A DNA stretch of 64,000 nt, from the NCBI RefSeq assembly GCF_002088975.1, contig NZ_NCST01000041.1, forward strand, positions 62,001-126,000, given 5' to 3'. The position numbers and the translations under genes were made by a program. Origin of the DNA: Henriciella aquimarina. Lineage in GTDB: Bacteria; Pseudomonadota; Alphaproteobacteria; Caulobacterales; Hyphomonadaceae. Below, one piece after another: positions 23,511 to 41,878 of this stretch. Each line of letters opens with the position of its first letter. Within the stretch, counting starts at the first letter, position 1. The notes below the pieces were generated by a model. That model had not been told where the DNA came from. It did not search any database and worked only from the letters and a program-made list of their open reading frames with translations.

Positions 23511-23537
23511 GAAATACACAATCTGACATGACGCACC

Positions 23538-23577
23538 GTGGGCGGCCCCTTATAGTCGGGGGCCGCCCACCTTTTTT
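23538..23577 (+). terminator. Strong rho-independent terminator after the TonB receptor
   Basis: A perfect 12-bp GC-rich stem (GTGGGCGGCCCC at 23538-23549 with its complement at 23559-23570) has a 9-base loop and six T residues at 23572-23577. It is 28 bases past the receptor stop. Confidence 0.93.
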
Positions 23578-23605
23578 CAGGATTATCAGGTCCTCGGAGA
23601 CAGTT

Positions 23606-25600: not shown

Positions 25601-25605
25601 GTTTC

Positions 25606-26097
25606 ATGGACCAGAAGACGACCGATGCCCTGATTGCGCTCCGGCGGATACAACGCCGGACCGAACTCTATGCCCGTTCGCTGGCCCAGGCGACGGGCCT
25701 GAGCGTTTCCCAGCTCAAGGTCCTTCAGCTCCTCTCCGGGCCGGGCGCGGCCACCGCAGGCGAACTGGTCCAGATGACCGCTCTCAGCAATGCGTCCATC
25801 ACCTCGCTGATCGGCAAGCTCGAAGCGCGCAAGCTAGTGGCGCGCACGCGGGATCCCGAAGACGGACGCCGGGTCGTCATCGCCCTTCAGCCGAAAGGCT
25901 ATGAAATGTTGCGCAATTCTCCCAATCCCTTGCAGGACCATTTCGAACTTCTGTTCACGGCCCTGCCGGAGTGGGAGCAATCGATGATCGTCTCGGCCCT
26001 GGAACGCGTCGCCCAGATCGTGGATGCCCGCTCGGAAATCACTGATTCCGAACCGATTCTCGATGTCGGCCTGTTCGACGAACCGGTCGCGCCCTGA
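25606..26097 (+). CDS. MarR-family transcriptional regulator
   Basis: A 163-residue winged-helix dimeric regulator. The recognition region GELVQMTALSNASITSLIGKLEARKLVARTRDPEDGRRVVIALQPKG shows the MarR wing with its DxR signature (DPEDGRR). It begins 5 bases after the sulfotransferase gene and is probably co-transcribed with it. It lies 270 bases before the Mo hydroxylase/sox block, whose upstream region holds palindromes that could be its operator. Effector unknown. Confidence 0.85.
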   Translation: MDQKTTDALIALRRIQRRTELYARSLAQATGLSVSQLKVLQLLSGPGAATAGELVQMTALSNASITSLIGKLEARKLVARTRDPEDGRRVVIALQPKGYEMLRNSPNPLQDHFELLFTALPEWEQSMIVSALERVAQIVDARSEITDSEPILDVGLFDEPVAP

Positions 26098-26367: not shown

Positions 26368-26820
26368 ATGGACCTCAAGGTAAACGGAAAAACGGTTTCG
26401 GTGGAGGCGGATGAATCGACCCCGCTTCTCTGGGTGCTTCGTGAGCATCTGGGCCTGACCGGCGCGAAATACGGCTGCGGGATTGCCCAGTGCGGCACCT
26501 GCACCATTCACATCGACGGCCAGGCGGTGCGCTCATGCACCTATCCGATCGGCGCGCTGTCGGGCGAGGAAGACATCACGACAATCGAAGGCCTGTCGGA
26601 AGATGGCAGCCACCCGGTCCAGCAGGCCTGGGTCGAGCTGGACATCCCCCAGTGCGGCTATTGCCAGCCGGGCATGATCATGGCCGTCGCCGGCATGCTC
26701 AACAACACGCCGGACCCGAGCGATGAGGACATCGACGCGCAGGTCACGAATATCTGCCGCTGCGGGACGTTCACGCGGGTGCGCGAAGGCATCCATCTCG
26801 CGAAAACGAAAAAGGCCTGA
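26368..26820 (+). CDS. 2Fe-2S subunit of a molybdenum hydroxylase (IorA-like)
   Basis: A 150-residue small subunit of a xanthine-oxidase-family enzyme. The plant-ferredoxin-type cluster uses C37, C42, C45 and C57 (YGCGIAQCGTC, RSCTYP). The second cluster, next to the Mo cofactor, uses C96, C99, C130 and C132 (PQCGYCQPGM, NICRCGT). This layout matches isoquinoline 1-oxidoreductase alpha and related two-subunit enzymes without a FAD subunit, which pass electrons to cytochromes. The ATG at 26368 has a strong AGGAGGGG upstream. It heads the operon. Confidence 0.9.
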   Translation: MDLKVNGKTVSVEADESTPLLWVLREHLGLTGAKYGCGIAQCGTCTIHIDGQAVRSCTYPIGALSGEEDITTIEGLSEDGSHPVQQAWVELDIPQCGYCQPGMIMAVAGMLNNTPDPSDEDIDAQVTNICRCGTFTRVREGIHLAKTKKA

Positions 26821-26833
26821 GGGGGCTCCAGTC

Positions 26834-29035
26834 ATGGCTGATACGATCAATCTTTCCCGCCGCGGCTTTATTGTCGGTACCGGGGCAACAGGCCTCACCA
26901 TCGGCATTCTCGCCGCCTGCTCGCCGGGCAGCGAAGAGGCCGGCACCGACACCGCCGCAAACACCGAACCGAACCCGGAAGTGAATGCCTGGGTCCATAT
27001 CGCGGCCGACGACACCGTCACCATCCGCATTGCGCGCTCGGAGATGGGCCAAGGCACGCTCACAGGCCTCGCCCAGCTTGTCGCCGAAGAGCTGCAATGC
27101 GACTGGGACAAGGTCATTACGGAATATCCGACGCCGGGCGAGAACCTCGCCCGCGACCGCGTCTGGCGCAGCTTCTCGACCGGGGGCTCCCAAGGCATCC
27201 GCGGCAGCCACGATTATGTCCGTGAAGGCGGTGCCGCCGCCCGCATGATGCTGATCCAGGCCGCCGCCAACCGCTGGGACGTGCCGGTGGATGAATGCTC
27301 GGCCGAGAAGAGCGTCATCACACACGGCCCCTCCGGCAAGACCTTCACCTATGGCGAAGTCGCCGACGAGGCCGCAGAGGTCGAGGCGCCCACCGATGTC
27401 CCGCTTAAGGATCCATCCGAGTGGACCATTATCGGCAAGCCCGTGAAGCGCCTCGATACCGCCGACAAGGTTACCGGCAAGCAGATCTACGGCGCCGACT
27501 TCAAGCTCGACGGCATGGTGAACGCCGCGGTCAAGCAGGCCCCGATGCGCAGCGGCACGCTGAAATCCTTCGATGCCGATGCCGTCTCCGGCATGCCCGG
27601 CGTGAAGCAGGTCCTGAAGGTGGACGACAGCACTGTCGCTGTCGTCGCGGACATGTGGTGGCAAGCCAAGAAGGCCATCGACGCCCTGCCCGTGGAATGG
27701 GAACCGGGTCCGGATTCCGGCTTTTCCACCGCCGCCTTCGAGGCCGATCTCGACGAGGGCCTGACGGCTGAAGACGCCTTCATCGGCAATGAAGCCGGCG
27801 ATGTCGATGCCGCCTTTGAAAACGCCGCCCAGGTGATCGAGGCGCAGTACAATTCCCCTCACCAGAACCATGCCTGCATGGAGCCGATGAACGCCACGGC
27901 CGTCTGGACCGAGGAGAAGTGCGAAGTCTGGTGCCCGACGCAAAACGGCGAGTCCGCGCTTGCGGCGGCGGCCGAAGCCGCCGGCCTGCCGATCGAGCAA
28001 TGCGATGTCTACAAGCTTCTGCTCGGCGGCGGTTTCGGCCGGCGCGGCATGAGCGACTATGTCACCCAGGTGGTGAACATCGCCAAACAGATGCCGGGCA
28101 CGCCGGTCAAGGTGCTCTGGACGCGTGAAGAAGACATGCAGCATGGCTTCTACCACCCGATCACCAAGGCCCGCTGTCAGGGCGCGCTCGATGCCGACGG
28201 CAACCTGACAGGCCTCAAGATCCGGATTTCCGGCCAGTCGATTTTCGCCGGGCTGATGCCGCAGGCGCTCGATAACGGCAAGGACTTCCTGGTCTTCCAG
28301 GGCCTTCTGCCGACCGGCGTGAACGAGCGCTATGAAGACCAGTCGCTGAAATACACCTTCCCGGCGCTGAAGATCGATCACGCGATGCGCAACCCGCCTG
28401 TTCGTCCCGGTTTCTGGCGCGGCGTGAACGCCAACCAGAATGCGATCTATCTCGAATGCTTCATGGATGAGCTGGCGCTGGCGGCCGGCAAGGATCCGCT
28501 TGAGTTCCGGCTCGCCTATCTGAAGGACAGCCCGAAGCTCGCCGCTGTCCTGCAGGCCGTGGCCGACAAGGCCGGCTGGGGCTCCGGGGGTGGCAAGGCC
28601 CGCGGGCTGTGTGCCTATTATTCCTTCGGCAGCTATACCGCCGCCTGTGCGGAAGTGACAGTGAGCGAGGACAACCAGCTCAAGATCGACCGCATCGTCG
28701 CGGCGACCGATCCGGGCTACGGGGTCAACCCGCAGCAGATCGACGCCCAGGTGTCCGGCTCCTTCGTCTATGGCCTCTCGGCCATGCTGCACGAGGAAAT
28801 CACCTTCGAGAACGGCGAGACCGTTCAGAAGAATTTCGACACCTACAATTCTATGCGCATTGCAGAGATGCCGGAAGTCGAGACCATTCTGATGCCCTCC
28901 GGCGGCTTCTGGGGCGGGGTTGGCGAGCCAACCATCGCCGTGACTGCCCCGGCCGTTCTGAACGCGATCCATGCGGCCACCGGCAAGCGTATCCGCCAGC
29001 TGCCGCTGAAGGACCAGAGCCTGAGGGACGCGTGA
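26834..29035 (+). CDS. Molybdopterin-binding subunit of an IorB-type hydroxylase, Tat-exported lipoprotein
   Basis: A 733-residue large subunit. The N-terminus has a twin-arginine signal (SRRGFIVGTGATGLTIGILAAC) that ends in a LAAC lipobox, so it is probably folded with cofactor, exported and lipid-anchored. The domains include the EMGQGTLTGLAQLVAEEL segment and an aldehyde-oxidase/xanthine-dehydrogenase core (VTGKQIYGADFKLDG, GGGFGRRG, VRPGFWRGVNANQNA, GGFWGGVGEP). The substrate is unknown: IorB-like enzymes hydroxylate N-heterocycles or aldehydes. Here it is operon-linked to sulfur-oxidation genes and to cofactor and molybdate genes. Its stop overlaps the GTG of the next gene. Confidence 0.88.
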   Translation: MADTINLSRRGFIVGTGATGLTIGILAACSPGSEEAGTDTAANTEPNPEVNAWVHIAADDTVTIRIARSEMGQGTLTGLAQLVAEELQCDWDKVITEYPTPGENLARDRVWRSFSTGGSQGIRGSHDYVREGGAAARMMLIQAAANRWDVPVDECSAEKSVITHGPSGKTFTYGEVADEAAEVEAPTDVPLKDPSEWTIIGKPVKRLDTADKVTGKQIYGADFKLDGMVNAAVKQAPMRSGTLKSFDADAVSGMPGVKQVLKVDDSTVAVVADMWWQAKKAIDALPVEWEPGPDSGFSTAAFEADLDEGLTAEDAFIGNEAGDVDAAFENAAQVIEAQYNSPHQNHACMEPMNATAVWTEEKCEVWCPTQNGESALAAAAEAAGLPIEQCDVYKLLLGGGFGRRGMSDYVTQVVNIAKQMPGTPVKVLWTREEDMQHGFYHPITKARCQGALDADGNLTGLKIRISGQSIFAGLMPQALDNGKDFLVFQGLLPTGVNERYEDQSLKYTFPALKIDHAMRNPPVRPGFWRGVNANQNAIYLECFMDELALAAGKDPLEFRLAYLKDSPKLAAVLQAVADKAGWGSGGGKARGLCAYYSFGSYTAACAEVTVSEDNQLKIDRIVAATDPGYGVNPQQIDAQVSGSFVYGLSAMLHEEITFENGETVQKNFDTYNSMRIAEMPEVETILMPSGGFWGGVGEPTIAVTAPAVLNAIHAATGKRIRQLPLKDQSLRDA

Positions 29036-29430
29036 GACAGAGGCGCACCGCCGCCTTTCTGACAAGCCTCGTCGCAGGCGGCCTGTTTCTGGCCGCCTGC
29101 GACGCCGGCCCCGAGGCCGCTGCGCCAGAGTCCGGGCCACCTGACTCCGGGGCCGACGCGCCGGCCTCGACCAAAGCGGAAGACGCCGAGGGCCACCCCA
29201 CCCTGCAGCGGCCGGCGGCCCTCGCCTTGTCCTGTTCCGGCTGCCATGCCACGGCGGGCGAGGCGATTCCGAGCCTTGAGAGCCAGACACAAGCGACGCT
29301 TGAAGAAAAGCTCACCGCCTACAGGACGGAGACAGACGGCACGACCGTCATGCACCGGCTGATGCGCGGCTATAGCGAAGCCGATATCGCCGCCATCAGC
29401 GCCTATATTGCCGGTGAGGCCGACCAATGA
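29032..29430 (+). CDS. FccA-like monohaem cytochrome c lipoprotein
   Basis: A 132-residue c-type cytochrome. The signal peptide ends in LAAC (lipid cysteine C23). An acidic Ala/Pro linker of about 35 residues follows, then a haem domain with C68-S-G-C71-H72 and a likely axial Met near residue 107 (TTVMHRLMRGYSEADIAAISAYIA). The domain resembles the small cytochrome of flavocytochrome c sulfide dehydrogenase. It probably accepts electrons from the flavoprotein encoded next, and perhaps from the Mo hydroxylase. The start is a GTG overlapping the upstream stop (GTGA). Confidence 0.78.
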   Translation: MRQRRTAAFLTSLVAGGLFLAACDAGPEAAAPESGPPDSGADAPASTKAEDAEGHPTLQRPAALALSCSGCHATAGEAIPSLESQTQATLEEKLTAYRTETDGTTVMHRLMRGYSEADIAAISAYIAGEADQ

Positions 29431-30710
29431 CGCATGCCTTCCTGCCCCATCGCCGCAGCGTGCTGACCGGCCTGGCCGGGACAGCGGCCATGGCCGCCTT
29501 CGCACCGCAAGCCTTCAGCCAGACATCGGCGCGCCTTGTCGTCGTCGGCGGCGGCTTCGGCGGTGCCACGGCGGCCCGCTTTCTCAAGACCTATCTGCCG
29601 AACGCCTCGGTCACGCTGATCGAACCGAACGCGGCCTATCACGCCTGCCCGTTCAGCAATCTCGTCATTGCCGGCCTGCGCGACATCGAGGCCCAGCGCT
29701 TCGGCTATGACAGCTTGCGCGCGGCAGGAATCGAGGTGGTCGCCCAGCGCGCCATCGACGTCGATCCGGCCAGGCGCACCGTCTCGCTCGAAGGCGGCGG
29801 GGAAGCGGTCTATGACAAGCTCGTCCTCTCACCCGGCATCGACATCCGCTGGGGCGCACTCGAAGGCTACGACGAAGCCGCTGCCGAGGTCATGCCGCAT
29901 GCCTGGAAGGCCGGGCCGCAGACCACGCTTCTGCGCCAGCAGCTGGAGGCGATGGAAGATGGAGGACTGGTCGTCATGTCGGCCCCGGCCGCGCCTTTCC
30001 GGTGTCCGCCCGGCCCGTATGAGCGGGCCAGCCTGATCGCACACTATCTCAAGACGCAGAAGCCGAATGCGAAACTGCTCATCCTGGATGCCAAGGATGT
30101 CTTCTCCAAGAAGCCGCTTTTCCTTGAAGCCTGGGCCGAACACTATCCCGAGCATCTCGAATGGCGCGGCGCGGCCGATTTCGGGCGGGTCGTCTCGGTC
30201 GATCCGGCTAGCATGACGCTCTCGACCGATTTCGAGGATATCCAGGCCGATGTCGCCAATGTCATCCCACCGCAAAAGGCCGGCGAGATTGCCGAGCGCG
30301 CCGGGGTCGCCGACGAGACGGGCTGGTGCCCGATCAATGGGCTCGACTTCTCCTCGCCGCTTCAGAAGGATATCCACGTCATCGGGGACGCGACCATCGC
30401 CGCGCCGATGCCGAAATCGGCCTTCTCGGCCAACCTTCAGGGCAAGCTCTGCGCCATGCAGATCGCCCGCATCCTGTCCGGCCTCGAACCGCAGGCGACC
30501 GTGCTGGCCAATACCTGCTACTCCTATGTCACGCCGGACGCGGCGGTCTCGATCACCGGCGTCTACGGCAATGAAGGCGGCACACCCACCAGCAAGGAAG
30601 GCGCGGGCGGGCTCTCGCCGGAAGGCGCGCCAGGCGATGTGCGTCAGGCCGAGGCCGCGCAGGCCGAAGCCTGGTTCCAGACAATCACCGCCGAGGTCTT
30701 CGGCGGATGA
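29427..30710 (+). CDS. Flavocytochrome c sulfide dehydrogenase flavoprotein (FccB/SoxF-like)
   Basis: A 427-residue flavoprotein with a Tat-like signal (HRRSVLTGLAGTAAMAAFAPQAFS) and the FAD fold VVVGGGFGGATAARFL at about residues 37-52. The two cysteines expected at the sulfide-oxidising site are in FRCPPGPYERA and ANTCYSYV. CPFSNLVIAG and HVIGDATIAAPMPKSAFSANLQGK are also family-typical. It would oxidise sulfide or a sulfane intermediate and pass electrons to the cytochrome encoded just upstream. It overlaps both neighbours by ATGA. Confidence 0.87.
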   Translation: MTHAFLPHRRSVLTGLAGTAAMAAFAPQAFSQTSARLVVVGGGFGGATAARFLKTYLPNASVTLIEPNAAYHACPFSNLVIAGLRDIEAQRFGYDSLRAAGIEVVAQRAIDVDPARRTVSLEGGGEAVYDKLVLSPGIDIRWGALEGYDEAAAEVMPHAWKAGPQTTLLRQQLEAMEDGGLVVMSAPAAPFRCPPGPYERASLIAHYLKTQKPNAKLLILDAKDVFSKKPLFLEAWAEHYPEHLEWRGAADFGRVVSVDPASMTLSTDFEDIQADVANVIPPQKAGEIAERAGVADETGWCPINGLDFSSPLQKDIHVIGDATIAAPMPKSAFSANLQGKLCAMQIARILSGLEPQATVLANTCYSYVTPDAAVSITGVYGNEGGTPTSKEGAGGLSPEGAPGDVRQAEAAQAEAWFQTITAEVFGG

Positions 30711-31156
30711 GGCCCATGGCCGCCCTATGCCTCCTCGCCGCCATGACGGCCTGCAACGGGCACAGTGATGAGCGCCTCGCCAGACCTGCCGAGATTGACG
30801 GCGACGCCATCACCGCTTCGCTGACCGGAGAGCCGGGCGATCCGCTCCGGGGCCGGGAGGTCTTTGCCAGCCGCGACCAGGGCCACTGCGTCCTCTGCCA
30901 CGCGATTGACGGGCTGGAGGCCGAATTCCAGGGCAATGTCGGCCCCGCGCTCACCGGGGTCGGCACCCGCCTCACGCCCGGCCAGATCCGCCTGCGCATC
31001 GCTGACGCGCAAATGATTTGGCCGCAGACGCTTATGCCCTCATATTACCGGGTGTCGGGCCTCAATCAGGTCGCCGCCGAATATCAAGGCGAACCGGCCC
31101 TCACCGCCCGGCAGATCGAAGACCTCGTGGCCTATCTTTCGCGTTTGGAAAACTGA
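30707..31156 (+). CDS. soxX: Sulfur-oxidising protein SoxX, lipoprotein form
   Basis: A 149-residue monohaem subunit of the SoxXA cytochrome, which attaches sulfur substrates to the SoxY cysteine. The haem site is C61-V-L-C64-H65. GNVGPALTGVGTRLTPGQIRLRI and the ligand Met in TLMPSYYRVSGLNQVAAEYQG are SoxX signatures. The signal peptide ends in TAC with C16 as probable lipid site, whereas classical SoxX is soluble in the periplasm. It overlaps fccB by ATGA. Confidence 0.9.
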   Translation: MRPMAALCLLAAMTACNGHSDERLARPAEIDGDAITASLTGEPGDPLRGREVFASRDQGHCVLCHAIDGLEAEFQGNVGPALTGVGTRLTPGQIRLRIADAQMIWPQTLMPSYYRVSGLNQVAAEYQGEPALTARQIEDLVAYLSRLEN

Positions 31157-31167
31157 AGCTTGCTCCC

Positions 31168-31638
31168 ATGACCCGTCCGCCCCATGCCTTTCCCCTGACC
31201 CGCCGCAGCATCCTGCTGACGGGCACCGCCGGTCTCGTCTCGGCCGCCCTGCCCTTTGGCGCCAGCGCGACGCCGGAAGATGCGGACGCCGCGATCCGCG
31301 CCCTCTTCGGCGACCGGCTCATCAATGACGGCAAGGTCACCGTCAAACTGCCGCCGATTGCCGAGAACGGCAATTCGGTTGCAATCGGCGTTTCGGTCGA
31401 CAGCCCGATGAGCGAAGACGATTACGTCAAGCAGATCGCGCTCTTCTCGCCGCGCAACCCGATTGCCGATGTCGCCCGTTTCCATCTCGGGCCCCGCGCT
31501 GGCAAGGCCGAGGTCTCGACCCGTATCCGCATGGCCGGCACCCAGACCGTGCGCGCGATTGCCGAAATGAATGATGGCAGCCTCTGGAAAGGCACAGCCA
31601 GCACCGTCGTCACCCTCGCCGCCTGCGTGATCGGATAG
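31168..31638 (+). CDS. soxY: Sulfur carrier protein SoxY with a variant tail
   Basis: A 156-residue carrier with a Tat signal (TRRSILLTGTAGLVSAALPFGASA). The SoxY fold is recognised by INDGKVTVKLPPIAENGNSVAIGVSVDSPM and QIALFSPRNPIADVARFHLGPRAGKAEVSTRIR. Canonical SoxY ends in GGCGG, a swinging arm whose cysteine holds the sulfur intermediate. Here the C-terminus is TLAACVIG. The cysteine is kept near the end but the flanking glycines are not. It is placed between soxX and soxZ as in full sox operons. Confidence 0.85.
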   Translation: MTRPPHAFPLTRRSILLTGTAGLVSAALPFGASATPEDADAAIRALFGDRLINDGKVTVKLPPIAENGNSVAIGVSVDSPMSEDDYVKQIALFSPRNPIADVARFHLGPRAGKAEVSTRIRMAGTQTVRAIAEMNDGSLWKGTASTVVTLAACVIG

Positions 31639-31647
31639 GAGCACCCC

Positions 31648-31965
31648 ATGACCATCCGCATTGCCGCCCCCGACACCGCAAAAAAAGGCGAGGTCATCGA
31701 GATCAAGGCGCTGATCCAGCATCCGATGGAGACCGGCTATCGCAGCGACTCCAAGGGCAAGGAAATTCCGCGCGACATCATCACCGAATTCGAATGCAGC
31801 TATGATGGCGAGACTGTCTTCGCGGCCAACTTCTTCCCCGCCATCGCGGCCAACCCGTTCCTCACCTTCTACACAAAGGCGACCACGAGCGGCACGCTCG
31901 AATTTACCTGGACCGACCAGGACGGAGAGAGCTGGTCGGAGACGCATGACCTCACCGTGGAATGA
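31648..31965 (+). CDS. soxZ: SoxZ, partner of SoxY
   Basis: A 105-residue immunoglobulin-like protein without a signal peptide; it is expected to be co-exported with SoxY via the Tat signal of that subunit. Signatures are KGEVIEIKALIQHPMETGYR, and EFECSYDGETVFAANFFPAIAANPFLTFYTKA near the C-terminus. It forms the SoxYZ heterodimer that carries sulfur substrates. It starts 9 bases after soxY and ends in an ATGATG overlap with soxA. Confidence 0.93.
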   Translation: MTIRIAAPDTAKKGEVIEIKALIQHPMETGYRSDSKGKEIPRDIITEFECSYDGETVFAANFFPAIAANPFLTFYTKATTSGTLEFTWTDQDGESWSETHDLTVE

Positions 31966-32756
31966 TGCGGGCCTGCCTTCTCGCCTTCCTGACGGTCACG
32001 GCCTGTACTGAAGCCAGCGCACCGGACACCACGCCCGAGCGCACGAGGCTTGCGCCCGGCGAGATCCGCTCCGGCTACACCTTCCTGCAGCCGCAGACGC
32101 AGGCCCTGCAGGATGACGATTTCGCCAATCCCGGCTTCCTCTGGGTCGACAGGGGCGACGCGCTTTTCCACGAGGCCGCCGCCAACGGAAAATCCTGCGC
32201 GAGTTGCCACGGCGAAGAGGGTGAGGAACTGGCGAGCGCCGCTGCCCACTACCCCGCCATCGACGAAGACAGCGGCGAACTGGTGAATATCGAAGGCCGG
32301 ATCAATCTCTGCCGCGCGCGCCATCAGGAGCGTGAACCGCTCGACTATGAAAGTGACGACCTCCTGGGCCTCACCGCCTATGTCGCCTATCTCGCTCGCG
32401 GCGTGCCAATGTCGGTCGACATCTCCGGCGCCGCACAGAGCTGGTATGAGAAAGGCGAAGACTACTTTTACACGCGGCGCGGCCAGTTCAATCTCGCCTG
32501 CAGCCAGTGTCACAATGAAAGCTGGGGCAAGAAGCTGCGCGGCGACACGATCAGCCAGGGCCATGGCAACGCCTTTCCAGGCTACCGGCTGGAATGGCAG
32601 AGTTTCGGTTCACTGCAGCGCCGCCTGCGCGATTGCGATAGCGGGGTGCGCGCCGAGCCGCTTGATTATGGCTCCGACACCTATAAGGCCGTCGAGCTCT
32701 ACCTCGCCAAGCGCGCCGAAGGCCTGGCCATGGAATCACCGGGAGTGAGACGATGA
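31962..32756 (+). CDS. soxA: Dihaem cytochrome SoxA, lipoprotein form
   Basis: A 264-residue L-cysteine S-thiosulfotransferase subunit that partners SoxX. Haem 1 is C79-A-S-C82-H83 and haem 2 is C180-S-Q-C183-H184. The active-site cysteine, which becomes a haem ligand, is C225 in RLRDCDSGVRAEP, so the catalytic apparatus is intact. The signal sequence ends in VTAC, predicting a lipid anchor at C15. It starts inside the soxZ stop; a second ATG 3 bases later is equally possible. The ModE-like gene starts within its stop. Confidence 0.9.
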   Translation: MMRACLLAFLTVTACTEASAPDTTPERTRLAPGEIRSGYTFLQPQTQALQDDDFANPGFLWVDRGDALFHEAAANGKSCASCHGEEGEELASAAAHYPAIDEDSGELVNIEGRINLCRARHQEREPLDYESDDLLGLTAYVAYLARGVPMSVDISGAAQSWYEKGEDYFYTRRGQFNLACSQCHNESWGKKLRGDTISQGHGNAFPGYRLEWQSFGSLQRRLRDCDSGVRAEPLDYGSDTYKAVELYLAKRAEGLAMESPGVRR

Positions 32757-33109
32757 CAGAGAGACAGGGCCCCGGCCTCAGCATCCGCATCAATCTGGCC
32801 AATGGCGGGCGGTTCGGCCCCGGCAAGGCCGCCCTGCTGCGGGCGATCGCCGAGCATGGCTCGATCCGGCAGGCTGCCCAGTCGCTCGCCATGTCCTATC
32901 CCCGCGCCCTGAAGCTCATCGACGAGATGAATAGCGACTTCACTGCGCCGCTGCTGGAATCCAGCCATGGCGGCGCCACTGGCGGCGGCTCGTCCCTCAC
33001 GCAGACGGGCCGGGATCTTCTCGAGGCTTATGACACGCTTTGTGCAGAGGCCGGCAAGGCTGCCAGCCCTGCGCTCAAGACCTTCCGGACCCAAGAAAAA
33101 TCAGCCTGA
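32753..33109 (+). CDS. ModE-like winged-helix regulator without molybdate-binding domain
   Basis: A 118-residue protein that matches only the DNA-binding part of ModE: a LysR-type winged helix with GKAALLRAIAEHGSIRQAAQSLAMSYPRALKLIDEMN, then the wing and GGGSSLTQTGRDLLEAY. The C-terminal TOBE domains that bind molybdate in E. coli ModE are absent, as in other short ModE proteins. Sitting between the Mo enzyme/sox genes and the cofactor genes, it may tie their expression to molybdate or to another signal. It overlaps soxA by ATGA. Confidence 0.78.
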   Translation: MTERQGPGLSIRINLANGGRFGPGKAALLRAIAEHGSIRQAAQSLAMSYPRALKLIDEMNSDFTAPLLESSHGGATGGGSSLTQTGRDLLEAYDTLCAEAGKAASPALKTFRTQEKSA

Positions 33110-33151
33110 GCGCTGGCTTCGCTATCAATGAGCGTTTAGAACGGGAGACCA

Positions 33152-34690: not shown

Positions 34691-35717
34691 TGGGTTCTCC
34701 CCCTCAACGACCACCCAGCCCCTCATCGACCGCTTCGGCCGCCAGGTCAGCTATCTGCGCCTTTCGGTGACAGACCGTTGCGACCTGCGTTGCAGCTACT
34801 GCATGGCCGAGCACATGACCTTCCTGCCCAAGAAGGATCTGCTTAGCCTGGAGGAACTTGAAACCGTCGCAGCCGCCTTCATCCGGCGCGGCGTACGCAA
34901 GATCCGCATCACTGGCGGCGAGCCACTGGTGCGCAAGGATATCGGCGAACTCTTCGACCGGCTGGGCGCCTATATGGATCACGGCCTTGAAGAACTGACC
35001 CTGACCACCAACGCCACCCTGCTCTCGGCCCATGCCGAGCGGCTCTACAAGGCTGGCGTGCGGCGCGTGAATGTCTCTCTCGACACGCTCGACCCGGCCA
35101 TGTTCCGCGAAATCACGCGGCGCGGCGACCTTCAGAAATCCCTTGATGGCATCGCCGCGGCGAAGGCGGCCGGCCTCAAGGTCAAGATCAATACGGTTGG
35201 TCTGAAACATCAGAATGCGGACGAAATTCCCGAGATGATAGAATGGGCGCATGCTGAAGGATTTGACATGACGCTGATCGAGGTGATGCCGCTTGGCCTC
35301 ACCGGCGAGGATCGTGTCGATCAATACATACCGCTCTTCGAGATCCGCGACCGGCTGGAAAAGCGCTGGACGCTGAAAGACGAGAAGACCGGCGACGCCC
35401 AGGCCGGGCCATCGCGCTATGTGCGCGTCGAAGAGACAGGCGGACGGCTCGGCTTCATCACGCCGCTGACCAACAATTTCTGCGCCGGCTGCAACCGGGT
35501 GCGCGTCACCTGTACCGGCCGCATCTATATGTGCCTCGGCCAGGACGACCATGTCGACCTGCGCGCCGCGCTCCGCGAAAGCGAGGATCCGCAAGCCGCC
35601 CTCGACGGGGCGCTCGACCGGGCACTTTTTGCCAAGCCCGAGCGCCATGAATTCGCGATCCGCGAACGCGGCGATGCCCCGGCCCTGCCGCGCCACATGT
35701 CGGTCACAGGGGGCTAA
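34683..35717 (+). CDS. moaA: GTP 3',8-cyclase MoaA
   Basis: A 344-residue radical SAM enzyme, the first step of molybdopterin synthesis. The N-terminal 4Fe-4S cysteines are C33, C37 and C40 (CDLRCSYC). The C-terminal cluster that binds GTP uses C267, C270 and C284 (C-x2-C-x13-C). The chain ends in VTGG, the double glycine needed for activity. It is translationally coupled to the XdhC-MocA fusion. Confidence 0.96.
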   Translation: MPDGFSPSTTTQPLIDRFGRQVSYLRLSVTDRCDLRCSYCMAEHMTFLPKKDLLSLEELETVAAAFIRRGVRKIRITGGEPLVRKDIGELFDRLGAYMDHGLEELTLTTNATLLSAHAERLYKAGVRRVNVSLDTLDPAMFREITRRGDLQKSLDGIAAAKAAGLKVKINTVGLKHQNADEIPEMIEWAHAEGFDMTLIEVMPLGLTGEDRVDQYIPLFEIRDRLEKRWTLKDEKTGDAQAGPSRYVRVEETGGRLGFITPLTNNFCAGCNRVRVTCTGRIYMCLGQDDHVDLRAALRESEDPQAALDGALDRALFAKPERHEFAIRERGDAPALPRHMSVTGG

Positions 35718-35721
35718 AGCC

Positions 35722-35970
35722 ATGGCGGATATCCTCTATTTCGGACGTCTCGGCGATGTTACGGGCATCCCCTCGGAACACATCGCCCTGCCTTCCAATA
35801 TCAGCAATACGCTGCAACTGCGCACCTGGCTCGACGGCGAGAAATCGCTTGGCGGCGCGCTGCTGGAAAAGACCGTGCGGCTCGCCGTGAACAGCGAAAT
35901 CGTGGCCGACCCGCACCCCGTTAAGGATGGCGACGAGATCGCCTTCATGCCCCCGGTCGGAGGCGGCTGA
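35722..35970 (+). CDS. moaD: Molybdopterin synthase small subunit MoaD
   Basis: An 82-residue ubiquitin-like sulfur carrier that ends in a glycine run (PPVGGG). The terminal glycine is adenylated and thiocarboxylated to supply the dithiolene sulfurs. NSEIVADPHPVKDGDEIAFMPPV is the family core. The frame is open upstream, and ATG 35722, 4 bases after moaA, gives the proper size. The MoeB activating enzyme is not encoded nearby. Confidence 0.92.
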   Translation: MADILYFGRLGDVTGIPSEHIALPSNISNTLQLRTWLDGEKSLGGALLEKTVRLAVNSEIVADPHPVKDGDEIAFMPPVGGG

Positions 35971-35971
35971 G

Positions 35972-36433
35972 ATGATCACGCTGAGCGCGCAGCCTTTCGA
36001 TGCGGGCGACGAGCTGAAAGCCTTCGAGGCACGCGCCAGCGGCGCCGGCGCCATCGTCAGCTTTACCGGGCTGGTGCGTGACCGCGCCAGCGACGAGAAC
36101 GTCCGCATACTGCATTTGCAGGCTTACTCACCGATGACCGAGCGCGGCATCGAACAGGCCGCCGCCCGCGCCGAAGCCCGCTGGCCGCTCACCGCGATCC
36201 GCATCCTGCACCGTATCGGCGATATGGGCCCGGGCGAGCCGATCGTCTTTGTCGCCACCGCGTCGGCCCATCGCCGCGACGCCTTCGAAGCCGCCGACTT
36301 CCTGATGGATTATCTCAAGACCGAGGCCGTCTTCTGGAAGAAGGAAGTGACCGACACCGGCGAGCGCTGGATCGAGCCGCGCGCCGAAGACTATCAGGAC
36401 AGTGCCCGCTGGGCGCTTACAGGAGAAGACTGA
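35972..36433 (+). CDS. moaE: Molybdopterin synthase large subunit MoaE
   Basis: A 153-residue catalytic subunit that converts cyclic pyranopterin monophosphate to molybdopterin with sulfur from MoaD. Signatures are GAIVSFTGLVRDRA, RILHRIGDMGPGEPIVFVATASAHRRDAFEAADFLMDYLKTEAVFWKKE, with the catalytic lysine in the KTEAVFWKKE stretch. It starts 1 base after the moaD stop. Confidence 0.95.
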   Translation: MITLSAQPFDAGDELKAFEARASGAGAIVSFTGLVRDRASDENVRILHLQAYSPMTERGIEQAAARAEARWPLTAIRILHRIGDMGPGEPIVFVATASAHRRDAFEAADFLMDYLKTEAVFWKKEVTDTGERWIEPRAEDYQDSARWALTGED

Positions 36434-36437
36434 CCCC

Positions 36438-36983
36438 ATGCATGGCATCAATGAAAGCCTCGCCTTCAAACCCGTGCGCATCGCCGTTCTGGTGATGAGC
36501 GACACGCGCACGCTCGACACCGACACGTCCGGGCTGACGCTCGTCCAGCGCATCGAGGGCGCAGGCCACACGGTCGCCGACCGCAAGATCGTGCCCGACG
36601 ACAAGGCCGCCATCCGCGCGCAGGTCTCGGCCTGGATTGCCGATCCGGACGTCGACGTTGTCATCACGTCCGGCGGCACCGGCCTCACCGGCCGGGACGT
36701 CACACCGGAAGCCATCACGCCCCTCTTCGACAAGGTGATCGACGGTTTCTCGGTCATCTTCCACCAGGTGAGCTATCAGAGCGTCGGCCTGTCGACGCTA
36801 CAGTCTCGCGCCATTGCCGGGGTCGCCAGCGGCACTTTCATCTTCTGCCTGCCGGGCTCCAACGGCGCGGTGAAGGATGGCTGGGACAAGGTCATCTCGC
36901 TGCAGCTCGACAGTCGTCACAAGCCCTGCAACCTTGTCGAGATCATGCCGCGCCTCATGGAAGACATGGAGCATTCGCATTGA
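36438..36983 (+). CDS. moaB: Molybdenum cofactor protein MoaB (MogA-type adenylyltransferase fold)
   Basis: A 181-residue protein of the MoaB/Mog family, which adenylates molybdopterin before metal insertion. The core [23 protein letters not shown] holds the substrate-binding GGTG loop, and [18 protein letters not shown] is conserved. There is no separate mogA gene in the cluster, so this protein may fill that role. It ends in a TTGA overlap with moaC. Confidence 0.9.
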
Positions 36984-37465
36984 GCGACGGACTGACCCAT
37001 ATCGGCCCGGATGGCCGCGCGCGCATGGTCGATGTCGGCGCCAAGGATGTCACCGAGCGCGTCGCCATCGCCCAGGGCCAGGTGCGCATGGCGCCCGAGA
37101 CTCTGAACCTCGCGCTCGGCCGCGACACCAGGAAGGGTGACCCGATCGCGATTGCGGAACTCGCCGGCATCATGGCCGCCAAGAAAACCTCCGATCTCAT
37201 CCCGCTCTGCCACCCGCTGCCACTTGCCAGCGTGAAGGTCGAGATCGAGGAAGCGCCCGGCGAACCGGCCCTGACCGTCACAGCCTGCGTCAAGACAAGC
37301 GGGCGCACCGGCGTGGAAATGGAAGCGCTGACAGCGGTCTCGGCAGCCTGCCTGACGCTCTATGACATGCTGAAAGCCGTCGACAAGGCGATGGTGATTG
37401 GCGGCATCGAACTCATCGAAAAGACCGGCGGCAAGTCGGGCGACTATCGGAAGGCCCCGGTTTGA
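36980..37465 (+). CDS. moaC: Cyclic pyranopterin monophosphate synthase MoaC
   Basis: A 161-residue enzyme acting right after MoaA. Signatures are [31 protein letters not shown] and [26 protein letters not shown]. The start is a TTG that overlaps the moaB stop (TTGA); the next ATG in frame would remove the RARMVDVG region that is conserved in the family. Confidence 0.94.
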
Positions 37466-38664
37466 GCGGGCTCATCAGCGTCGACGAGGCGCTCGCGCTC
37501 CTGCGTGGGCAGGCCATCGCACCGGGCACGGAAACGGTCGCGCTCGAGGGCGCGCAAGGGCGCCATCTGGCTGAGCCCGTTATCGCCCGCGTCTCCCGCC
37601 CGCCCGCAGCGGTCTCAGCCATGGATGGCTATGCCGTGCGGCTGGCCGATGTCCGCAACTCTGGGGCCAAGCTTACCGTGATCGGGGAAGCGCCGGCCGG
37701 CGCCCCCTTCGAAGGCCGCCTCGACGCCGGTCAGGCCGTGCGCATTTTCACCGGCGGCGAGATCCCGGACGGCGCCGATCATATCGTCATCCAGGAAGAC
37801 GCCATGCGTGATGACGATACCCTCGTCTGCCGGGAGGCCTATGACGCGTCGCAATTCATCCGGCCCGCCGGTCTGGATTTCACCGAAGGCGATACCGTCC
37901 TGCCTGAAGGCGCCAGGCTCGGCGCGGGCGAACTGGCCCTCGCCGCCTCGGCCAATGTCGCCGCCCTGACGGTCCATAAACGCCTGCGCGTCGGCATCCT
38001 CGCCAATGGCAATGAGCTGAAAGCACCGGGCTCCGACCTCGCCCCCGGCGAGATCGTCAATTCCAATCCTGCAGGCCTCGCCGCCCTCATCAGGGAGTGG
38101 GGCGGAGACCCCGTCGATCTCGGCATTGCCCGGGACACGCTGAAATCGATCCGGGACTCAGTCGCCGCCGCACCCGAGATCGACATCTTCCTGCCGGTCG
38201 GCGGGGCCTCGGTCGGCGATCATGACCTGATGCGCCCGGCCTTCGCCGCTGAAGGGTTCGAGCCCGTCTTTCAGAAGATCGCGGTCAAACCCGGCAAGCC
38301 GACCTGGTTCTCGGCCCGCGACGCACAGCGTGTGCTCGGCCTGCCGGGCAATCCGGCCTCGGCGCTGGTCTGCGCCCATCTCTTCCTGAAGCCGCTGCTG
38401 ACAGGCCGGTCGCACAGCTTCGTCCCGGCCCGCCTCGCCGCGCCGGTCGCGGCGAATGGTCCGCGCGAACATTTCATGCGCGCCGCGCTCGCGGTTTCCG
38501 ATGATGGACGTCTTGTGGCCACCCCGGCGGCCAATCAGGACAGCTCGCTCATCCGGCCCTTCATCGAAAGCCAGGCCTTGCTGCGCCGTGAAACAAATGC
38601 GCCCGCGCTGGGCGCGGGCGATGTGGCAGACTGCCTGCTGATGCGGGGGCTACAGGATGGCTGA
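37462..38664 (+). CDS. moeA: Molybdopterin molybdenumtransferase MoeA
   Basis: A 400-residue enzyme that inserts molybdate into adenylated molybdopterin. Motifs include [48 protein letters not shown] and [11 protein letters not shown], then [28 protein letters not shown]. The start is a TTG that overlaps the moaC stop, the second consecutive TTG start in this operon. It ends 22 bases from the convergent cytochrome gene. Confidence 0.94.
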
Positions 38665-38686
38665 GCCCCCGCATGGCAGAGAAAGA

Positions 38687-39244
38687 TCAGGACGGCTCGT
38701 AGCCGGTTTCCGCCATGATGTAGGCGATGACGGCTGTGCGGTCGTCCGGCCGACGCACGCCGGCAAAGCTCATCCGGTTGCCCGGCAGGAATTCCCGCGG
38801 ATTGGCGAGCCACTGCTCCAGCTGTTCCGGCGTCCAGGTAAAGTCGGCTTCCTGCAGCGCCGGCGAATAGTCGAACCCCTCCTTGGTGCCGACCTCGCGG
38901 TCGAACAGCCCGTAAAGGTTCGGGCCCAGAACGGCCTGACCGCCTTCTTCAAGCGTGTGACAAGACTGGCACTGGTAAAAGATGCGGCGTCCGCGGTCAT
39001 AATCCGCAGAGGCGTAGGGCTCGGGCAGCCCGGCAAATTCGTTTGCGGCGGGCTCGGCCTCAGCCGTCTCGGACGGCTCGCTGGCCGCATCGGTCTCGGC
39101 CGGGGTCTCCGGCGTGGTGGCCGACTCGCTCTCGGCGGGCGGCGTGGGGGCGTCAGCCTGAGGTTCGCTCTCACCGGAGCCGCCGCAGGCAGCCAGCAAT
39201 CCTGCCGCAAGGCCGAGGGCAGCCCAGTTCATCGTCCGTTTCAT
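38687..39244 (-). CDS. Monohaem cytochrome c lipoprotein with acidic linker
   Basis: A 185-residue class I cytochrome. The lipobox LAAC predicts lipidation at C20. About 50 residues rich in Glu, Pro, Ala, Ser and Thr follow, then the haem domain with C92-Q-S-C95-H96 and axial M158 in GNRMSFAG, as in c2/c550-type cytochromes. Two ATGs (39247 and 39244) follow an AGGAG; the second has better spacing. It is antisense to its neighbours, between moeA and modA. It could carry electrons from the Mo/Sox lipoproteins to an oxidase, an inference from design and location only. Confidence 0.82.
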   Translation of the reverse strand: MKRTMNWAALGLAAGLLAACGGSGESEPQADAPTPPAESESATTPETPAETDAASEPSETAEAEPAANEFAGLPEPYASADYDRGRRIFYQCQSCHTLEEGGQAVLGPNLYGLFDREVGTKEGFDYSPALQEADFTWTPEQLEQWLANPREFLPGNRMSFAGVRRPDDRTAVIAYIMAETGYEPS

Positions 39245-39376
39245 CATATCGCTCCTGACGTATCGGTTTCCCGTTCTTGTCTCCCAGCCCCGGTCAGGGC
39301 TTCGGCTACTGCATATGGCGCAGCACGACTGGAGCGGCAAGCCGACGTGTGGCGAAAACCACCCTTCCAGAGCTGT

Positions 39377-40135
39377 GTGATAAAGCCGCGCATCGGCCTG
39401 GCCGGCGCCATGCTGGCCCTGCTCGCGCTCTTTCCAGCCCAGGCTCAGGCTGACGAGGCGACGATTGCCGTCGCCTCGAATTTCCGCCCCGTCATGGCGG
39501 AACTCGAAACCGTCTTCGAATCGCAGACAGGGCATGATCTCACCGTCTCCGTCGGCTCGACCGGCAAGCTCTACACCCAGATCATCCACGGCGCGCCCTA
39601 TGACATTTTCCTGGCCGCCGACGAGGCCCGGCCCAAACGCCTTGAAGCCGAATCGCAGATCGTGCCCGGCACACGCTTTACCTATGCCATCGGCCAGCTG
39701 ACGCTCTGGCGCCCCGAGGGCGGCGAGATCAGCCCGGAGGCACTGGCCGCGCCCGACCTGCGCCATGTCGCCATCGCCAATCCGGAGCTCGCCCCTTATG
39801 GCGCCGCGGCGACGGAAGTCATCGCCGGGCTGGGCCTCACGGGCCAATTGGAGGGCAAGCTTGTGCGCGGGGAGAATATCGGCCAGGCCTTCGCCTTCGT
39901 GAAGACCGGCAATGCCGAGCTTGGCTTCGTGGCGCTGTCGCAAGTGCTCTCGCTGGAGGACGGCGAACGCGGCGCCCGGTGGGATCCACCGCAGACGCTC
40001 TACACCCCCATCCGCCAGGACGCTGTCCTCCTGAAGCGCAGCGCCGACAATGAGGCCGCCCAGGCCTTCATCGCCTTCCTGCGGGGCGACGATGCGAAAG
40101 CCATCATCTCCGGCTACGGGTACGACACGCCGTGA
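39377..40135 (+). CDS. modA: Molybdate ABC transporter substrate-binding protein ModA
   Basis: A 252-residue periplasmic binding protein. The signal peptide is GLAGAMLALLALFPAQAQA, and the mature start DEATIAVASNFRPVMAELETVFE is typical ModA. SVGSTGKLYTQIIHGAPYDIFLAADEARP contains the oxyanion-binding serine region, and GYGYDTP ends the chain. The start is taken as GTG 39377, which places basic residues before the signal core; the nearest ATG (39410) would lose them. The stop overlaps the modB GTG. Confidence 0.92.
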   Translation: MIKPRIGLAGAMLALLALFPAQAQADEATIAVASNFRPVMAELETVFESQTGHDLTVSVGSTGKLYTQIIHGAPYDIFLAADEARPKRLEAESQIVPGTRFTYAIGQLTLWRPEGGEISPEALAAPDLRHVAIANPELAPYGAAATEVIAGLGLTGQLEGKLVRGENIGQAFAFVKTGNAELGFVALSQVLSLEDGERGARWDPPQTLYTPIRQDAVLLKRSADNEAAQAFIAFLRGDDAKAIISGYGYDTP

Positions 40136-40809
40136 CCCTGCCCGATCTTCCGGCCCTGTGGCTGACCTTGAGGCTCGCCCTGACGACAACGGGCCTGCTG
40201 CTCCTCATTGGGACGCCGCTGGCCTGGTGGCTGGCGACAACACGTACCCGGGCCAAGCCCGTCATCGAGGCGCTGGTTGCCCTGCCGCTCGTCCTGCCGC
40301 CGACCGTGCTCGGCTTCTACCTGCTGATCGCCTTTAACCCGGACAGCCCGATTGGCAGCTTCTGGCTGAGCGTCACCGGCGACACGCTGACCTTCTCATT
40401 CGCCGGGCTCGTCATTGCTTCGGTGATCTACTCCCTGCCCTTCATGGTGCAGCCTCTACAGACCGCCTTCGAGACGACCGGACGCAGCGCCATGGAACTC
40501 GCCGCCAGCCTGCGGGCTGCGCCGCTGGACGCCTTCTTCACCGTCGCCATGCCGGGCGCCGCGCGCGGCTTCGTGACCGCCATCGTGCTCAGCTTCGCGC
40601 ATACGCTTGGCGAATTCGGCGTCGTGCTGATGGTCGGCGGCAACATCCCGGAGCGCACCCGCGTCATCTCGATTGCCATCTATGAGCATGTCGACAACCT
40701 CGCCTATGCGGAGGCTCACACGCTCTCGGCCATCCTGCTGGGGCTGTCCTTCATCGTCCTGCTCTTCGTCTATGCCTTCAACCGGCGCTTCCCCGTCCAT
40801 GCCCACTGA
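40132..40809 (+). CDS. modB: Molybdate ABC transporter permease ModB
   Basis: A 225-residue permease with about five to six membrane helices. The ABC-permease EAA-type loop is at MELAASLRAAPLDAFFTVAMPGAARGFVTAIVLSFAHTLGEFGVVLMVGG, with the FAHTLGEFG stretch characteristic of molybdate permeases. The start is GTG within the modA stop. It overlaps modC by 11 bases. Confidence 0.93.
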   Translation: MTLPDLPALWLTLRLALTTTGLLLLIGTPLAWWLATTRTRAKPVIEALVALPLVLPPTVLGFYLLIAFNPDSPIGSFWLSVTGDTLTFSFAGLVIASVIYSLPFMVQPLQTAFETTGRSAMELAASLRAAPLDAFFTVAMPGAARGFVTAIVLSFAHTLGEFGVVLMVGGNIPERTRVISIAIYEHVDNLAYAEAHTLSAILLGLSFIVLLFVYAFNRRFPVHAH

Positions 40810-41878
40810 CACGCTCACCCTCGACCTGGAGAAGCGTTTCGCAGGCTTCGGGCTGGCGCTGTCGCGCGACCTCCCGCTGGAGGGCATCACCGCCATCTTC
40901 GGGCCGAGCGGGTCCGGCAAGTCGACCCTGCTGCGCCTGATAGCCGGCTTCGAGCGCCCGGATCGCGGCCGCATCCTTGGAAGAGATGAGGTCTGGTGTG
41001 ACACCGCCGCACGCCGCTTCCTGCCGCCGTACAAGCGCCCGGCCGGGTTCGTCCGCCAGGGCGCGCCCCTGCTGCCGCATCTCAGCGTCGCCGGCAATCT
41101 GAGCTATGGCGAGAAGCGTACCGGCAAACGTCCGGCCCGTTACAGCCTTGAGGACGTTACCGCCGCGCTCGACATCGCCCCGCTCATGGAGCACCGCCCG
41201 GCCATGCTGTCGGGGGGCGAACGCCAGCGGGTCGCACTCGCCCAGGCCCTGCTGACCCGGCCGGACATCCTGCTTCTCGACGAGCCCTTTTCCGCGCTGG
41301 ACCGCAAGCGCAAACTGGCCATTCTGCCCTATCTGCAGCGCCTTCAGGCCCAGTTCGCCATGCCGGTGCTCTATGTCAGCCACGACATTGAGGAGGTCGC
41401 GAGCCTGGCCGACCGGATCCTCATTCTCGAGGCAGGTCGCGAAACCGCCTATGGTGATGTCACCGCCTGTCTCAACGCCCATGCCTTTGGCGAAGACGAT
41501 GATGGCGCCATCCTGTCCGGTCAGGTGACGGCTTTCGACGAGCGGCTTGACCTGATGGATATCGAGGTCGCGGGCGGGGTCCTCCGCCTGCCGGCCGAAC
41601 AGTCGCGCTCCATCGGCGATCCTGTCCGGCTCCTCCTGCGGGCCAATGAGGTCGCGCTGTCGCTCACCCGGCCCGACGGGCTCAGCATCCGAAATGCGCT
41701 GACAGGAGAGGTGGCGGCTATCCGTGCGGACGGCGATGGGCCGTTCATGCGGGTCGAGGTCACGCTGTCCGGCACGCACCTTCCAGTGCGCGTGACGCGG
41801 GCGGCGGCTGAAGACCTCTCCCTACAGGAAGGCCAGGCCGTCTACGCTCTGATCAAGACCGCGACACTGGCCGGCTGA
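40799..41878 (+). CDS. modC: Molybdate ABC transporter ATP-binding protein ModC
   Basis: A 359-residue ATPase. Walker A GPSGSGKST is at residues 35-43, the signature is LSGGERQRVALAQA, Walker B is ILLLDEPFSALD and the switch histidine is in YVSHD. The C-terminal third is a molybdate-binding TOBE (MOP) domain (SIRNALTGEVAAIRADG), which can sense intracellular molybdate. That could compensate for the missing TOBE domain of the nearby ModE-like regulator. It ends the plus-strand block. Confidence 0.94.
   Translation: MPTDTLTLDLEKRFAGFGLALSRDLPLEGITAIFGPSGSGKSTLLRLIAGFERPDRGRILGRDEVWCDTAARRFLPPYKRPAGFVRQGAPLLPHLSVAGNLSYGEKRTGKRPARYSLEDVTAALDIAPLMEHRPAMLSGGERQRVALAQALLTRPDILLLDEPFSALDRKRKLAILPYLQRLQAQFAMPVLYVSHDIEEVASLADRILILEAGRETAYGDVTACLNAHAFGEDDDGAILSGQVTAFDERLDLMDIEVAGGVLRLPAEQSRSIGDPVRLLLRANEVALSLTRPDGLSIRNALTGEVAAIRADGDGPFMRVEVTLSGTHLPVRVTRAAAEDLSLQEGQAVYALIKTATLAG

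Follow-up and report, generated by a model that had tools for sequence, protein, structure and literature searches.

In the current study, we characterized an eight-gene unit of Henriciella aquimarina in which a molybdenum (Mo) hydroxylase is encoded together with part of the Sox sulfur-oxidation machinery. The stretch of DNA analyzed, referred to here as the window, comprises 64,000 nt of contig NZ_NCST01000041.1 (positions 62,001 to 126,000, forward strand) from a 4.34-Mb genome that is 99.99% complete; positions below are those of the window. The unit, iorA-iorB-fccA-fccB-soxX-soxY-soxZ-soxA, lies on the plus strand at 26368-32756 and is followed by a ModE-like gene, a gene for an XdhC-MocA fusion, moaADEBC and moeA (Table 1). 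Genes, order and strand agree with a preliminary description of this DNA and were borne out by Pfam and NCBIfam profile matches. The octet is very probably a real, widespread and coherent Sox variant with the Mo hydroxylase as its fixed partner, and its standing as a separate system is well supported. What it does is addressed more tentatively below, where we propose that the hydroxylase may act on organic thiols held by the SoxY-like carrier.

Of 299 genomes of the order Caulobacterales, 34, the host included, have the SoxY-related family TIGR04487, and the octet recurs at all 33 of the other loci with its gene order and orientation unchanged. Members of the IorB clade (at least 65% identity) occur in 36 of the 299 genomes, 34 of which also have TIGR04487, and the next IorB matches (E ≤ 1e-150) are at 42% identity. 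The association of the hydroxylase with sox genes in relatives, which the preliminary description had left to be checked, is therefore almost perfect in the order (34 shared genomes; 33/33 octets), and on this gene order and co-occurrence a chance neighborhood was rejected. In wider samples, 98 of the 385 genomes from the class and 120 of the 398 from the phylum had TIGR04487 matches, with only 21 and 15, respectively, over the cut-off, because ordinary SoxY scores against the profile too. Forty places from these samples were fetched: 20 had no iorB, nine held a six-gene form (iorAB-soxXYZA, referred to here as the hexet), eight held the octet, one held the octet with fccA undetected and two were partial. 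A scan of named genomes with an IorB alignment yielded at least 585 relatives, and the best 80 loci were kept. Among these best 80, there were 35 octets, 17 hexets with no fcc genes in between, four octets with fccA undetected, 15 iorAB pairs without sox genes on the same strand and nine partial or cut loci; among the 15, one (L167) has soxXYZA divergently adjacent and another (L185) ends right after iorB. By record title, hosts of the best 80 loci include Henriciella, Hyphomonas, Bradyrhizobium, Bosea, Microvirga, Methylobacterium, Skermanella, Noviherbaspirillum, Thiohalophilus and Thiohalocapsa, and some titles of metagenome-assembled genomes (MAGs) are probably mislabelled. Five genomes are counted in both the sample-derived and the named sets (L041/L110, L044/L108, L052/L109, L061/L113 and L076/L114).

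The protein that the preliminary description had called SoxY is indeed a SoxY relative, but it scored 106.5 bits against the profile of true SoxY (TIGR04488), below the cut-off of 125, and exceeded the cut-off of TIGR04487 (Table 1). By profile score, it is a member of this paralogue family ('SoxY-related AACIE arm protein') and not a true SoxY. Its arm also lacks the GGCGG motif (VTIGGC) of the thiosulfate Sox system. When SoxYs encoded no more than 6 kb from iorB were compared, [AGSP]AC was present in the arm of 114/115 (109 distinct proteins) and GGCGG in none. Since the named-genome loci were gathered by IorB alone, the arm played no part in their selection. The 21 SoxYs not near iorB comprised 17 with GGCG, two with GGCS or GGCA, one unrelated match (L166) and one with AAC (L075). 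The last of these fits the arm rule, because an IorB of 72% identity is encoded elsewhere in the same genome. One further locus (L164, 6.2-7.1 kb) has iorAB and then a soxYZ pair whose arm is of the AAC type, but neither soxX nor soxA was detected there, and it is perhaps a minimal form of the unit; its record title (Chitinophaga) is probably that of a mislabelled MAG.

A second change was observed in SoxA. In TsdA, Arg109 and Arg119, among others, hold thiosulfate and Cys123 is a heme ligand. According to PMC4423706, SoxA always retains the counterpart of Arg119, has Lys or Ser in place of Arg109, and possesses one more invariant Arg. Counting from the Cys ligand, TsdA Arg109 corresponds to SoxA position -14 and Arg119 to -4, an assignment made by spacing and from that paper rather than from a structure of the window protein, and by the same spacing the further Arg is probably -16. 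The arginines at -16 and -4 and the Cys ligand are kept in 114/114 unit-linked SoxAs. At -14, these proteins (window included) have Glu in 110, Asp in two, Gln in one and Ser in one, and Glu remains in 104/108 once duplicates and the window are left out. Lys, Lys and Ser occupy this position in the solved SoxAs 1h31, 2c1d and 3oa8, respectively, and 24 rows not near IorB have Lys in 15, Ser in four and other residues in five, in a set that keeps two L193 rows (Cys probably misplaced), the gappy rows L191, L197, L201 and L202, and L075, which belongs to the system. The window SoxA thus retains the Cys heme ligand and conserved arginines of the Sox protein but not its Lys/Ser thiosulfate contact. 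A scan of columns between unit-linked and other proteins singled out SoxA -14, the SoxY arm, a Leu/Ala switch within the heme motif of SoxX and a few conservative substitutions; no distinguishing column was found in SoxZ. The redox residues of SoxXA are retained, so that oxidative attachment of some load to SoxYZ probably still takes place. A negative charge at the site that holds thiosulfate argues for a neutral or positively charged thiol as substrate, and the earlier guess of a substrate other than thiosulfate gains support from both this charge reversal and the SoxY arm, as far as residues can tell. Judged by sequence, the AAC arm of SoxY and the Glu of SoxA are two simple markers that separate the unit from true Sox.

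The preliminary description had also reported soxB and soxCD to be missing. In the whole host genome, neither soxB nor soxC gave a match at E ≤ 0.001, while SoxD was not searched for. With SoxB and SoxC gone from the host, the load does not leave the carrier as sulfate in the known way. The survey was extended to 55 genomes, 34 from the order and 21 from the wider samples, picked for the unit or, for G388, for its AAC-type sox genes. Any match to SoxB was obtained in 14 of them (eight over the cut-off) and to SoxC in 20 (six over the cut-off), those over the cut-off each lying at a place or on a contig other than the locus of the unit. All genomes with SoxB or SoxC over the cut-off lie outside the order; within it, SoxB was found in 0/34 unit-bearing genomes and SoxC over the cut-off in 0/34, with one match below it (G065). 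These data bear on the alternative that an ordinary thiosulfate Sox cluster, lacking some of its genes, merely happens to neighbor an unrelated Mo hydroxylase. All of its Sox parts do match Sox families, but the gene order and co-occurrence in the order and beyond, the changes in the SoxY arm and SoxA, and the lack of SoxB in the host and the other unit-bearing genomes of the order all speak against it. We find this reading scarcely credible and consider it refuted as far as gene content allows.

From gene content, order, co-occurrence and residues, we infer the following scheme for the substrate, the carrier-bound chemistry, the fate of the sulfur and the electron acceptor. SoxXA, with its Cys-ligated heme kept, would oxidatively join an organic thiol (R-CH2-SH) to the arm Cys of the SoxYZ-like carrier, yielding SoxY-S-S-CH2R. 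IorAB would then hydroxylate the carbon beside the sulfur, and the product would split into a carbonyl compound and a SoxY persulfide, with the electrons leaving IorAB via its two [2Fe-2S] clusters to a c-type cytochrome. FccAB would oxidize the sulfane (or sulfide), yielding polysulfide or zero-valent sulfur, and free the carrier, and because FccAB would discharge the carrier in this way, SoxB and SoxCD would not be needed. XdhC-MocA, Moa, MoeA and Mod, judging from their families, would supply the cytidylated, sulfurated cofactor. That the octet is a dedicated periplasmic system, made of part of Sox and a Mo hydroxylase, separate from thiosulfate oxidation and working by these SoxXA, IorAB and FccAB steps, is a proposal we make tentatively, at a little short of an even chance. 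Its central element, thiol chemistry on the carrier, is the simplest interpretation of a unit that includes a Mo hydroxylase from a family of carbon oxidizers, and seems to us quite possible while we lean somewhat against it. The broadest form, a 'desulfurating Sox' widespread among Alpha-, Beta- and Gammaproteobacteria, with a Mo hydroxylase that acts on organic thiols disulfide-bound to a carrier protein, is possible but doubtful.

The missing SoxC match raises the alternative that IorAB replaces SoxCD, oxidizing the SoxY sulfane to a sulfonate, with an unlinked hydrolase or an exchange step standing in for SoxB. A Mo enzyme would then sit in the place of SoxCD, in keeping with a host in which neither soxC nor soxB is matched. 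However, as a family, enzymes of the xanthine dehydrogenase (XDH) type are known for C-H hydroxylation (and CO oxidation) and not for sulfur oxidation, no hydrolase is conserved in the octet, and 6/55 unit-bearing genomes have SoxC over the cut-off as well. This replacement therefore appears improbable.

The distribution of FccAB bears on the discharge step of our scheme. The genes encode both Fcc Pfam domains (central and flavin-binding, in FccB) and a mono-heme FccA, as in flavocytochrome c sulfide dehydrogenase, but differ from it in being embedded in the octet. FccB Cys 193 and Cys 364, which we take to be the redox pair, can be paired with Cys at similar positions in the other FccBs compared. 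FccB is present in 55/55 unit-bearing genomes; 11 of these have no fcc genes between iorB and soxX, and in them it is encoded elsewhere in the genome (10) or just past soxA (one, G432). Six of these 11 loci belong to SoxB-bearing genomes, and a link between loss of FccAB and presence of SoxB was suspected; the idea was dropped, as none of the 11 genomes lacks FccB. Within the order, FccB was found in 14 genomes of a 135-genome sample, all 14 of them unit-bearing. This tight association, along with the many hosts that are heterotrophs judging by their names, would suit a system that merely removes sulfane sulfur or sulfide, in which the Mo hydroxylase scavenges a reactive by-product and energy metabolism plays no part. 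A dedicated carrier, a loader and a cofactor supply are heavy equipment for such a role, and no family of sulfane-sulfur-sensing regulators was matched among the window proteins scanned, so that we regard detoxification as decidedly improbable.

The hydroxylase itself has the features of an isoquinoline 1-oxidoreductase (IOR)/XDH-type enzyme, namely Mo-binding domains, two [2Fe-2S] clusters and a catalytic Glu, all read from sequence alone. Eight Cys of IorA are at matching positions in 19/19 sequences compared, R9, R10 and E698 of IorB are invariant in an alignment of 19, and the catalytic motif GG[VIL]GEP is present in 102/103 members of the IorB clade. An AlphaFold model of IorB (19 sequences; mean predicted local distance difference test score 75, with weak stretches) confirmed the fold. 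In a tree of 108 rows built by a quick method from 22 of the sample-derived loci with iorB, all 80 named loci and the window (8gy3, the closest solved structure, was not included), the IorBs of the unit group in a single clade (support 100), apart from five other IorBs. Rows were labelled by distance, so that L148 and L166 stand as hexets with their SoxY outside the unit and L077 as an octet with FccB past soxA, and some rows labelled as having no adjacent sox end at a contig end. The host genome has one other distant IorB relative (27-32% identity, contig C27). A second, distant iorAB pair (IorB 33% identical) lies directly upstream of the octet in two Henriciella-type loci, L031 (15.3-18 kb) and L108 (6.5-9 kb; same genome as L044).

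Several observations weigh against carrier-bound chemistry. Both chains have their closest solved structure in the membrane-bound aldehyde dehydrogenase of Gluconobacter oxydans (8gy3), which was likewise the first match of the AlphaFold model, and because of this kinship a free aldehyde would be no less natural a substrate than a thiol on the carrier. We know of no Mo hydroxylase that acts beside a disulfide sulfur. The Glu at SoxA -14 could fit the changed SoxY arm rather than a small substrate. Two genomes of the order (G078 and G087) have an IorB 65-67% identical and no TIGR04487 match, and the sole exception to the arm rule, L148, has a SoxY with the arm GGAGACG outside the unit, 5.6 kb from the iorAB pair (SoxY at 10.3 kb). 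In the tree, 18 rows have no adjacent sox; a single nested group of Gammaproteobacteria holds 11 of them, a pattern that we read as a loss of linkage. Finally, in 15 genomes with iorAB away from sox, SoxY is encoded elsewhere in 13, and the three arms that were read are ordinary (GGCGG), so that the hydroxylase can evidently do without the AAC carrier.

One alternative is a parallel arrangement, in which both halves of the unit deal with one organosulfur compound: IorAB would be an ordinary periplasmic aldehyde (or heterocycle) oxidase clearing the carbon product, and SoxXYZA and FccAB would handle the released sulfur, without any carbon chemistry on the carrier. The kinship of both subunits to 8gy3 speaks for it, as do the 15 of the best 80 named loci that have iorAB without sox on the strand, the one with divergently adjacent sox among them. 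Against it, the octet encodes no C-S cleaving enzyme, and the change of the arm whenever SoxY is in the unit would be left unexplained, as would the Glu of SoxA. We judge this arrangement unlikely, though it deserves serious consideration beside the carrier-bound scheme. At iorAB loci lacking sox genes, the only recurrent immediate neighbors are XdhC- and MocA-like (clusters c11 and c10; 5/19 loci); an ATP-binding cassette (ABC) ATPase (c12) occurs in 4/19, not adjacent, and one neighbor in L130 is an MlaE permease. Four loci with clade iorAB and no adjacent sox (L130, L174, L175 and L137) belong to known or likely sulfur oxidizers (Thiohalophilus, Thiohalocapsa and Ectothiorhodospiraceae), which may hint at a role of the hydroxylase in sulfur metabolism in these hosts too.

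Comparison with known systems places the unit close to several of them. It shares with the Sox thiosulfate system (SoxXA-SoxYZ-SoxB-SoxCD) a SoxX, SoxZ and SoxA over the cut-offs of the true families and a SoxA with its Cys ligand and two Arg, but differs in its host without SoxB or SoxC match, its TIGR04487 SoxY with an AAC arm, the Glu at the SoxA contact and the added IorAB. The Gluconobacter enzyme resembles IorAB in its Mo and 2x[2Fe-2S] chains, both in fold and in sequence, whereas the octet has no cytochrome subunit of its own for IorAB, and IorAB mostly has sox genes next to it or occurs in genomes most of which encode SoxY. AldFGH represents the three-subunit membrane-bound type of aldehyde dehydrogenase. 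In that type a cytochrome c subunit is encoded alongside, whereas the octet contains no such extra gene; FccA or a cytochrome encoded on the minus strand nearby (38687-39247) could stand in. Isoquinoline 1-oxidoreductase is placed beside the Gluconobacter enzyme by name only. Divergent SoxY arms have been described in symbionts, and SoxYZ fusions have been linked with alcohol and methanol dehydrogenases, in the portion of PMC11237559 available to us; the terms 'xanthine' and 'molybd' are absent from its main text. The SoxYZ-like carriers beside quinoprotein alcohol or methanol dehydrogenases (TIGR04557; SoxYZ-S2 and -S4) parallel our unit in tying a SoxYZ relative with a changed arm to a periplasmic carbon oxidase. 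Those systems have a SoxYZ fusion, a pyrroloquinoline quinone enzyme and SoxH, and SoxXA is not named among their neighbors in the available text (PMC11237559), whereas the octet has separate SoxY and SoxZ, a Mo enzyme, SoxXA and Fcc. Other papers, likewise available in part, deal with the ordinary sox genes of Bosea (PMC5894208) and with organosulfur oxidation involving FccAB (PMC6548844; PMC12262181), the accessible parts of the latter two making no mention of the octet. No description linking an IOR-type hydroxylase with Sox was found in the open-licence papers searched. The SoxY paralogue has already been named by NCBI, under a family name that, in the part of the TIGR04487 record available, is silent on IorAB, FccAB and function, and the system around it is, as far as we found, apparently undescribed.

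The Mo-cofactor genes next to the octet are best seen as its satellite. Cofactor supply had been described as part of the same block; the genes are indeed present at the locus, but their placement varies among relatives, and membership in the core was rejected since they lie downstream, upstream or outside the fetched stretch. Part of the block is found on one side of the octet or the other in 29/33 loci of the order, within the 13 to 20 kb fetched. Outside Hyphomonadaceae, no moaA was found near the unit in the loci fetched, only XdhC/MocA-like genes in six gammaproteobacterial loci. MoaA is present in 34/34 unit-bearing genomes of the order vs. 168/265 of the others, and the host genome has a single MoaA (PF06463) match. 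XDH-type enzymes need a MocA-type cytidylyltransferase and XdhC, and because the block encodes both, it fits IorAB as a client.

The organization of the locus was also described as a single plus-strand block, which holds from the octet through moeA; the minus-strand cytochrome gene splits moeA from modABC. Its product may be the electron acceptor of the unit, and a 70-85% identical copy occurs in 10/33 loci of the order. Since this gene occupies the region antisense to it, the 492-aa modA frame that begins at 38657 is too long, and modA likely starts at 39410. Apparent modA genes beside moeA in relatives were rejected, the tblastn matches in 10 loci of the order being antisense readings of the same cytochrome. 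With start codons chosen from frame and spacing, the reported 4-base stop/start overlaps were seen at seven junctions, four of them among the seven of the octet (iorB/fccA, fccA/fccB, fccB/soxX and soxZ/soxA) and three beyond it (soxA/modE, moaB/moaC and moaC/moeA). The octet is preceded by a gene for a MarR-type regulator (25411-26097), upstream of which are genes for a TonB-dependent receptor and a tetratricopeptide repeat-sulfotransferase protein (region 21024-26097).

Table 1. Genes of the octet and its surroundings in the window, with the matches on which their assignments are based.
Feature	Position	Strand	Description and matches
iorA	26368..26820	+	[2Fe-2S] subunit of IOR/XDH-type Mo hydroxylase; Pfam Fer2 and Fer2_2; closest solved chain 8gy3_B (3.7e-48)
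iorB	26834..29035	+	Mo-binding subunit; MoCoBD_1/2; twin-arginine signal; catalytic Glu motif WGGVGEP; closest solved chain 8gy3_C
fccA	29032..29430	+	Mono-heme cytochrome c subunit; one CxxCH (CSGCH); Pfam Cytochrom_C
fccB	29427..30710	+	Flavocytochrome c sulfide dehydrogenase flavoprotein; FCSD_central 1.3e-48, FCSD-flav_bind 8.9e-21
soxX	30707..31156	+	c-type cytochrome; TIGR04485, 78.1 bits (cut-off 61)
soxY-like carrier	31168..31638	+	AAC arm (end TLAACVIG), RR near start; TIGR04487, 184.1 bits (cut-off 172)
soxZ	31648..31965	+	TIGR04490, 105.8 bits (cut-off 76)
soxA	31962..32756	+	Two CxxCH; catalytic Cys ligand kept; Glu at -14 from Cys; TIGR04484, 231.7 bits (cut-off 110)
ModE-like one-domain regulator (satellite)	32753..33109	+	TIGR00637, E 1.7e-21, 76.1 bits (below cut-off 98.5)
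XdhC-MocA fusion (satellite)	33152..34690	+	Insertion/sulfuration chaperone and Mo-cofactor cytidylyltransferase; XdhC_CoxI, XdhC_C, NTP_transf_3; best NCBIfam TIGR03310, below cut-off
moaA, moaD, moaE, moaB, moaC, moeA (satellite)	34683..38664	+	Mo-cofactor synthesis; Pfam
c-type cytochrome lipoprotein	38687..39247	-	Mono-heme; between moeA and modA; Cytochrom_C 1.3e-07
modA, modB, modC	39410..41878	+	Molybdate ABC transporter; Pfam

In surveys of genomes and metagenomes, genes for SoxA, SoxX and SoxYZ are commonly taken as a sign of thiosulfate oxidation. If organic thiols are what this unit handles, many heterotrophs, including Bradyrhizobium, Bosea, Methylobacterium, Microvirga, Hyphomonas and Henriciella, may have been mis-scored in this respect, and the unit would represent an overlooked route from organic to inorganic sulfur. 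The unit also poses the clear biochemical question of whether an XDH-type enzyme can work on a protein-bound substrate.

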